A stretch of DNA of 45,438 bases from a bacterium (GTDB taxonomy: Bacteria; Myxococcota_A; Bradymonadia; UBA7976; UBA1532), in NCBI GenBank assembly GCA_030426085.1, contig JAUHYW010000081.1:1-45438 (forward strand). Reading direction: 5' to 3'. This document shows positions 132 to 32,557 of the stretch, in pieces; the stretch's first letter is position 1; each line of letters opens with the position of its first letter. The notes below the pieces were generated by a model. That model saw only the letters and a program-made list of their open reading frames with translations, did no database searches and was not told the origin of the DNA. A program made the position numbers and the translations under genes.

Positions 132-421
132 GGCATCGCCTCCCGTGGGTCCCGCTCGCCGCGGTACGGAGAATGGTGCCATCCCGAGGCTCGATGCAAT
201 CTCCGAGTATGGGTGTCGGTGGGCGGTGTGCGGGGTGCCGTATGACTGACAGACACCCCGCCGGGGCGGGGGTGAGCGCGGGCGGGGCGGCCGATCAGCC
301 GCGGGGGATGAGGCGCAGCGTCGGGGGCTTCCTCCTCGGCCAGCGCCTCGTCGTCCAGTTCATCGTCGATGATCGTCGACCGCCGCGCCGTCCTCGCCGG
401 CCTCGACCGCCCCGCCCCACC

Positions 422-1204
422 ATGGGCACCTGGCGCTGCGACACCTCCAAGCCCGGGGGGCAGCCGGTGTGCAGCGAGGTGCGCAACGCGCCCGACGGCG
501 CCGCCTGCGGCGGGCAGTGCAGCACCTGCCGGGCGGGGCGCTGCGTGGCGCCGACCCCGCCGCCCCAGCCCACCGCGACCGTCACGCTGAGCGGCCACCG
601 GCTCGTCGAGCGCAGCCGCACGCTCGAGACCTGCGCCGCGCCCATCGCCAGCGTGGACCTCGACGAGGTGCGGATCTCGCGCCCCAAGTGCAAGCCGGGG
701 CACTCGCCGCCCAACCGGCGCTGCCGACGGGGCAGTCGATACGCCTCGGTCCCCCAGCACATCACCGTGCCGCTCGGCGGCGAGAACCGCGCGTTCACCG
801 GCCCGTGCTACGCCCACACGCGCGGGCCCGGCTCGGGCTGGAACAAGGGCCACAAGCTCTACATCACCAACGGCCCGTCGCGGAGCACCGAGCGGACCTG
901 CGTCTACTGGGCCGGCTCGCACTCGCACACCGTCAAGATGTGCAGCAAGGCGACGGAGCGCTACACCAATGAGGTCGGCGCCGATCGCCAGCTCGCCCGC
1001 GGCAAGAAGCACGGCGAGGCGATCACCTACAAGCTGCCCTCCGCGCCGGCCGGCGACCTGACGCTGCGGGTGCAGTGGAGCGACGGCCAGATGGGCGAAG
1101 AGGTCGAATGGGGTGGCTCCGGTCAGGTGCTGCGGCGCACCGGCTCGAAGGACAACGCGATGACCTACACCCTCCACCGCCCGCCCCCGCCCCTCTGCCC
1201 CTGA
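422..1204 (+). CDS. Cys-rich secreted-type protein, probably 5'-truncated
   Basis: The 260-residue frame has strongly GC3-biased codons from the ATG at 422 to the TGA at 1202. It begins abruptly inside a Cys-rich segment (CDTS, VCSEV, ACGG, CSTC, RCVAP) of the kind seen after signal peptides in Myxococcota surface proteins. A Pro-rich linker follows, then a C-terminal domain of about 200 residues with scattered Cys and Trp (GSGWNKGHKLYITNGP, CVYWAGSHSHTVKMC), plausibly a beta-sandwich. No signal peptide or Shine-Dalgarno precedes it. Upstream, the frame runs through Arg/Pro codons that look like another gene's antisense. The antisense of 300-380 reads an acidic stretch (IIDDELDDEALAEEE). I infer that the true N-terminus has been lost, or that a rearrangement joint lies near 420. 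I do not recognise the C-terminal domain. Confidence 0.5.
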   Translation: MGTWRCDTSKPGGQPVCSEVRNAPDGAACGGQCSTCRAGRCVAPTPPPQPTATVTLSGHRLVERSRTLETCAAPIASVDLDEVRISRPKCKPGHSPPNRRCRRGSRYASVPQHITVPLGGENRAFTGPCYAHTRGPGSGWNKGHKLYITNGPSRSTERTCVYWAGSHSHTVKMCSKATERYTNEVGADRQLARGKKHGEAITYKLPSAPAGDLTLRVQWSDGQMGEEVEWGGSGQVLRRTGSKDNAMTYTLHRPPPPLCP

Positions 1205-1330
1205 CGGCGCATCGGCGCCGGGCCGGGGGCCGGGCTGGCGCCTCGCCCTGCAACCGCGCCTCGATCCGCGCCTCGACGCCTCCGGGGGGTTGATCGATCG
1301 ACCCGGCCGAGGTCCGAGACCCCCTCCCGA

Positions 1331-1965
1331 TTCGAACGATCGACCGCCGGACGCCTGCCGAAGCCTGTCGCCGGCCGCTCCTTCGAATCGGGCGGCCTCC
1401 GCAGCCTCGCCGCCGCTCGATCGTTCGAATCATGAACGGGTCCCGGGCCCGACATCGACTCGATCGTTCGAATTTCGCAGGGTCCCGGACCCTCCCTCGA
1501 TTCGTTCATTCGAATTTCGACGGGGTCTCGCGGCCTCTCCCGATCCGGTCATTCGAATTTCGAAGGGTCCCGGACCCGGGCTCGATTCGCTCGTTCGAAT
1601 TCTGGCGGGGTGTCGGACCCTCCTCGATTCGTTCATTCGAATTTCGGCGGGGTGTCGGACCCTCCTCGATTCGTTCATTCGAATTTCGGCGGGGTGTCGG
1701 ACCCTCCTCGATTCGTTGGTTCGAATTCGGGCGGGGTCTGGGACCCGACCTCGATTCGTTCATTCGAATTTCGACGGGGTCTCGGACCCTCTTCGATTCG
1801 TTCATTCGAATTTCGATGGGGTCTCGCATCATTCTGGCGGTCGTTCGGTCGGATCGCGCCGGGGTCGAGGACCTCATGGCGGTCGTACGATCGAATCGCG
1901 TCGGGGTCTCGCACCCTTTCGACGGTCGTCGGTCCCGCTCGCGCCGGGGTCGAGGACCTCCCGGT
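1331..1965. repeat. Degenerate 42/43-bp tandem array (about 14 units)
   Basis: The landmark TTCGAAT occurs at 1382, 1424, 1467, 1509, 1552, 1594, 1636, 1678, 1720, 1763 and 1805, so steps are 42 or 43 nt. CGGGGT repeats at 1521, 1606, 1648, 1690, 1732, 1775, 1860, 1902 and 1945 in the same register. The core unit holds the palindrome ATTCGAAT, a CGGGGT block and a GTCGGACCC block. Units are near-identical in the middle (1594-1720) and decay outward. The last part shows a two-unit period (CGGGGTCGAGGACCTC at 1860 and 1945). Because steps alternate between 42 and 43, no reading frame is kept, so this is not a protein repeat. There are no unique spacers, so it is not CRISPR. The flanks 1205-1330 and 1966-2165 hold no gene I can support. 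Confidence 0.85.

Positions 1966-31028: not shown

Positions 31029-32557
<1,529 letters not shown>

Follow-up and report, generated by a model that had tools for sequence, protein, structure and literature searches.

A tandem array of 42/43-bp units on the plus strand of the window (positions 1282 to 1960) is best read, from comparisons of sequence and gene order, as the orphaned array of a module with two parts. This module would consist of a gene of the protein family DUF6261 (Pfam PF19775) and a neighbouring array of 41-44 bp units, the two halves being likely cognate, and we put the probability of this reading at about 0.5. The window, meaning the whole stretch of DNA that was analysed, is a complete contig of 45,438 bp (C12) from a genome of 10.1 Mb in 178 contigs (G000), the sampled G+C content of which was about 74%. 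The association of such arrays with DUF6261 genes is strong, and from it we infer a mechanism in which the DUF6261 protein recognises the array. The original prediction, which had described the array from the letters of the window, was partly supported overall.

The original prediction placed about 14 units at positions 1331 to 1965. The presence of a tandem array was confirmed by Tandem Repeats Finder (TRF), which called positions 1416 to 1970 with periods of 42, 85, and 127 and a score of up to 502, and by unit-profile chaining and the unit model, but its extent was found to be 1282 to 1960, with 16 units and a chain score of 632, where shuffled sequence reached no more than about 17. The unit consensus is approximately TCGATTCGTTCATTCGAATTTCGACGGGGTCTCGGACCCTCC; an exact ATTCGAAT was present in 6 units. 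The spacing between units was 42 bp nine times and 43 bp six times, with a mean of 42.4 bp, in agreement with the predicted alternation. The fit to the unit model was best at the centre of the array (about 42-44 bits) and poorest at its edges (16-18 bits), as had been described, and two adjacent units, at 1621 and 1663 (positions 1621 to 1704, plus strand, from the unit list obtained by chaining), are identical and represent a recent duplication. This pair and the homogenised centre fit the proposed growth of the array by internal duplication. A unit on the opposite strand lies at the left edge of the array (1310 to 1350, minus strand, 31.3 bits to the unit model), and an inverted unit was likewise found at the left edge of a related array on contig C109 of the same genome.

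The array is not protein-coding, because the reading frame is lost across the units and the G+C phase contrast was 0.06, compared to a genome median of 0.43; a protein repeat is thus ruled out, as had been argued. The repeats at positions 31227 to 31411 of the window, which are in-frame and of low complexity with TRF periods of 12, 18, and 42, have a strong coding signal and are therefore unrelated to the array. A CRISPR array was also rejected, since this would need identical repeats and unique spacers, and the repeats here are contiguous and degenerate with no spacers. The palindromic TTCGAA core that had been noted is exact in 12 of the 16 units, but it is not essential, as arrays of the same period have entirely different sequences. 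The suggestion that these palindromes all lie on the same face of the DNA held approximately in the window, where the phase resultant of the cores was 0.88 (helical repeats of 10.5-10.6 bp assumed), but it is no general rule, because the mean periods of sister arrays range from 42.0 to about 43.5 bp.

The window retains a remnant of a DUF6261 gene, the presumed lost gene of the module, in the form of its frameshifted 3′ end (about 296 to 417, minus strand); translated pieces of it match in two frames the DUF6261 protein encoded on contig C64, and positions 319 to 417 are 93% identical to the intact gene there. At positions 118 to 295 there is a duplicated block that consists of the start of a truncated lipoprotein gene (on the minus strand) and its upstream region, with copies on C57 (845-993), C64 (22166-22328), and C109 (20207-20359) of the same genome. 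The copies are 82-98% identical (87-98% between the window block and the others), several of them are near contig ends, and their sharp junctions suggest recombination. A cysteine-rich gene with a coding signal and no Pfam family is located between the remnant and the array (421 to 1204, plus strand); it probably does not belong to the module and may be an insertion. The order on C64 is the shared block, the DUF6261 gene (minus strand), and an array, and the order in the window is the shared block, the DUF6261 remnant (minus strand), the cysteine-rich plus-strand gene, and the array. Therefore, the window array is on the side expected for the upstream array of the lost gene, but further off. 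The C64 array was only weakly similar to the C12 and C109 arrays (z 0.8 to 3.7), and likewise to the C12/C109/C170 family as a whole, so that the membership of the window array in the module rests on its flanks, period, and orientation. In terms of the features that define the module, the window contains the 41-44 bp non-coding tandem array, and the DUF6261 gene within about 1.5 kb in a known geometry is present only in its decayed, frameshifted form.

The original prediction had counted a unit found nowhere else as evidence against it. A search of the genome with the unit model located the unit sequence in three arrays, on C12, C109, and C170, so the unit is not unique to the window; there was no fourth array in the genome and nothing convincing in 57 relatives, and a single scan for exact matches in the collection of named genomes did not find the unit pattern. 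The C109 array has 16 units and is 78% identical to the window array over most of its length, and the C170 array has diverged further and has an 85-bp super-period. The neighbouring genes are convergent at the window array and divergent at C109 and C170.

The period is more widely distributed than the sequence. A self-similarity search of non-coding DNA, in which no period was assumed and about 1.24 Mb of the genome was sampled, found lags on a ladder of 42/43, 85-87, 127-129, and 170-172 bp in 10 of 13 non-coding repeat loci; coding repeats in the same sample often had lags that were multiples of three. Arrays with lags of 43, 85, and 86 were found in a congener (G001) and arrays with lags of 42 and 85 in another genome of the same family (G006), and almost no ladder arrays were present in outgroup samples. 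The density of about 9 arrays per Mb is rough only, some contigs having been sampled for holding hits. The unit consensus sequences of different arrays were mostly unrelated in pairwise comparison, and descent of all arrays from one sequence ancestor was therefore rejected. The arrays occupy intergenic gaps in every orientation, and non-coding DNA outside the arrays had no residual 42-bp signal. Next to DUF6261 genes, no units of 31-32 or 52-53 bp were observed, which argues for a size ruler rather than helical phasing alone. At one locus of the congener (L168:16107-16895, on G001:C4), a Transposase_31 (YhgA-like, PF04754) gene adjoins a near-perfect 85-bp array. A link between the array and a neighbouring hydrolase was rejected because the closest relative of the hydrolase elsewhere has no array; its best named relative is in an unclassified MAG and the next in a Polyangiaceae MAG, from which the host would probably be Myxococcota-like.

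The gene beside the C64 array was assigned to DUF6261 with 38.1 bits, compared to a cut-off of 27. In a search of relatives, a gene adjoining another array was found to have seven paralogues in G000 and G001, and this distant paralogue family was linked to DUF6261 when profiles were compared (E 2.8e-8). DUF6261 was present in 15 of 38 close genomes, and a phylum-wide sample of 284 genomes had it in 24; no convincing relative was found in the PDB or among phage families, and no homologues were found on plasmids or in viruses. A Streptococcus drug-resistance study reportedly mentions DUF6261, with a title and abstract that do not concern the function of the family. One 4.2-Mb genome of the same family (G002) contains 52 DUF6261 genes, an unusual expansion. 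The ends of contigs C64 and C65, both with a DUF6261 gene, are 98% identical over 666 bp and are either recent duplicates or an assembly artefact.

The association was evaluated with a fixed criterion, namely an array with a period of 41-44 bp (or a multiple) within 1.5 kb of a DUF6261 gene. It was found that 36 of 58 DUF6261 loci had a ladder array, compared to 5 of the 179 stretches that served as controls (Fisher p about 5e-22), which were mostly random stretches rather than matched gene neighbourhoods and included none from G002; with TRF alone, the values were 30 of 58 and 3 of 179. The other DUF6261 loci (22/58) had no detectable array. Background arrays are frequent in G000, G001, and G006 (20 of 300 random stretches), and most of the arrays sampled in these genomes have no recognisable DUF6261 neighbour. 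All seven distant paralogues looked array-linked before the fixed criterion was applied, and 6 of the 7 loci in the genus had arrays when it was used. The G+C content of DUF6261 loci in related genomes spans 42-73%, and the link to arrays holds across families. Families f1 and f4 have the array upstream, with 47-160 bp (median 110 bp) between its end and the reading frame, and families f5 and f6 have it downstream, just past the gene; this difference in position between families counts against the module reading. At two of the downstream loci (L256 and L258), the array is beyond a terminator-like hairpin.

Orthologous modules (L236/L237) have kept homologous arrays with a changed copy number. 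A comparison of 21 upstream modules showed that array similarity is highest where the proteins are closest, and only when the arrays are in the same orientation; several close protein pairs, such as L264/L271, have unrelated arrays, and beyond the closest pairs there was no overall correlation between protein and array (Mantel p 0.6). Therefore, the array sequence diverges faster than the DUF6261 protein, and the period and place of the array persist.

A mechanism that would account for these features is one in which each array has its own sequence, with unit length and place common to all, and the array is most likely the cognate nucleic-acid partner of the DUF6261 protein encoded next to it. 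The 42-nt ruler would be set by a single protein assembly, or a single processed unit, for each repeat, and the sequence would be free to turn over while the units match each other and their protein. More tentatively, and with the odds somewhat against it, DUF6261 and its 42-nt arrays may form an undescribed and highly paralogous system, in which recognition by each protein would be confined to its own, rapidly evolving array, either as DNA or in the form of processed RNA. The binding platform for a protein that had been suggested for the window array is possible, with DUF6261 as the candidate partner family; a partition-site or nucleoid role, also suggested, found no specific support.

The alternative that survives best, although we consider it unlikely, is that the array is an RNA gene made of tandem stem-loops of about 42 nt that would be cut into units and bound by DUF6261, in the manner of type III antitoxin RNAs or TIGR stem-loop arrays. 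It is in keeping with this that, on average over 40 array types, units form better local folds than shuffles do (mean z for the sense strand -0.85, p 1.5e-6; for the antisense strand -0.48; sense versus antisense paired p 0.05), that some units (L287, L269, L271, and L236) have strong stem-loops, and that ToxIN antitoxins also keep unit length and vary in sequence and copy number (PMC5086642). However, the window units had no consensus fold and a covariation equal to that of shuffles, so neither the structured RNA of the original prediction nor a conserved hairpin per unit was upheld, and alifold tests of individual arrays were inconsistent. Substitutions in stems had no bias toward wobble or compensatory pairs, and the window array had no Rfam match at the gathering score. 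Terminators between array and gene were not clearly enriched (6 of 19 on the sense strand, compared to 4 antisense and 2.7 in shuffles), and a promoter scan showed none in this interval. Extra inverted repeats per array were mild only.

As to a role as DNA, the helical phasing would suit a DNA platform. Histone-like phasing was rejected, because the histone-fold protein (PF00808) was absent from 13 genomes in a search in which archaeal controls were positive. We lean slightly toward the array acting as DNA rather than RNA, because the stems are without compensatory change and some arrays are beyond a terminator-like hairpin.

It is rather improbable that the arrays are neutral satellites, produced by slippage or unequal exchange with some mutational machinery that favours 42-43 bp steps, and that their association with DUF6261 is due to hitchhiking or to insertion sites in common. 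The turnover of sequences, the homogenised centres, the changes in copy number, the filling of intergenic gaps of all orientations, and the many arrays lacking DUF6261 are in keeping with such satellites, but it would be unexpected for neutral repeats to be linked to a single protein family in four families that differ widely in G+C content, and to keep a conserved distance to the gene. A very improbable reading is that the TTCGAA palindromes, which are roughly in phase and conserved in the C109 and C170 arrays, are the target of a sequence-specific dimeric DNA-binding protein with no relation to DUF6261, since same-period arrays exist without the palindrome, only three arrays in the 10-Mb genome have the TTCGAA unit, and the gene contexts of these three differ.

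The module of DUF6261 gene and array, which is the reading that we prefer, was compared with known systems. REP sequences are palindromic repeats beside a cognate multi-copy gene, the RAYT (tnpA_REP) transposase. DUF6261 differs in having no Y1-transposase match (nor was a shared transposase family found in a Pfam scan of 20 members at E <= 0.01), and its units are in tandem at 42-43 bp rather than dispersed. The tandem repeats of Borgs are described as rapidly evolving and independently arising repeat regions (PMC9879509), whereas the present arrays have a unit length fixed near 42 bp, are on bacterial contigs, and are tied to one protein family.

In type III toxin-antitoxin systems (ToxIN, CptIN, and TenpIN), a tandem repeat array likewise precedes a small protein gene, and repeat length is conserved as sequence and number diverge (PMC5086642). 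In contrast, no ToxN, CptN, or TenpN family (Pfam, NCBIfam) was found among the proteins scanned, DUF6261 arrays are downstream in two families, and their number of units is often higher (16 in the window). TIGR-Tas loci have a single-protein gene with a short-unit array upstream and/or downstream, the array sequence being constant within a locus and variable between loci, and one branch has palindromic stem-loop units (PMC12045711). The DUF6261 modules resemble them in the pairing of a gene with a neighbouring short-unit array and in a unit that is kept while its sequence varies between loci, but the 20 DUF6261 members in the Pfam scan had no Nop domain. Furthermore, 36-nt tigRNAs come from two 8-12 nt repeats and two 9-nt spacers, whereas the DUF6261-linked units are contiguous, 41-44 bp long, and have scattered substitutions with no spacer blocks.

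Because their defining proteins are absent, we file the putative DUF6261-array module under neither TIGR-Tas nor type III toxin-antitoxin systems, and no description of it was found in the open-licence literature. It provides a first functional lead for DUF6261, an uncharacterised family with many copies per genome, and it illustrates that arrays of unrelated sequence can form a single class that would escape searches based on sequence alone. Pairs of a gene and an array have repeatedly turned out to be important, as in CRISPR, TIGR-Tas, and ToxIN.
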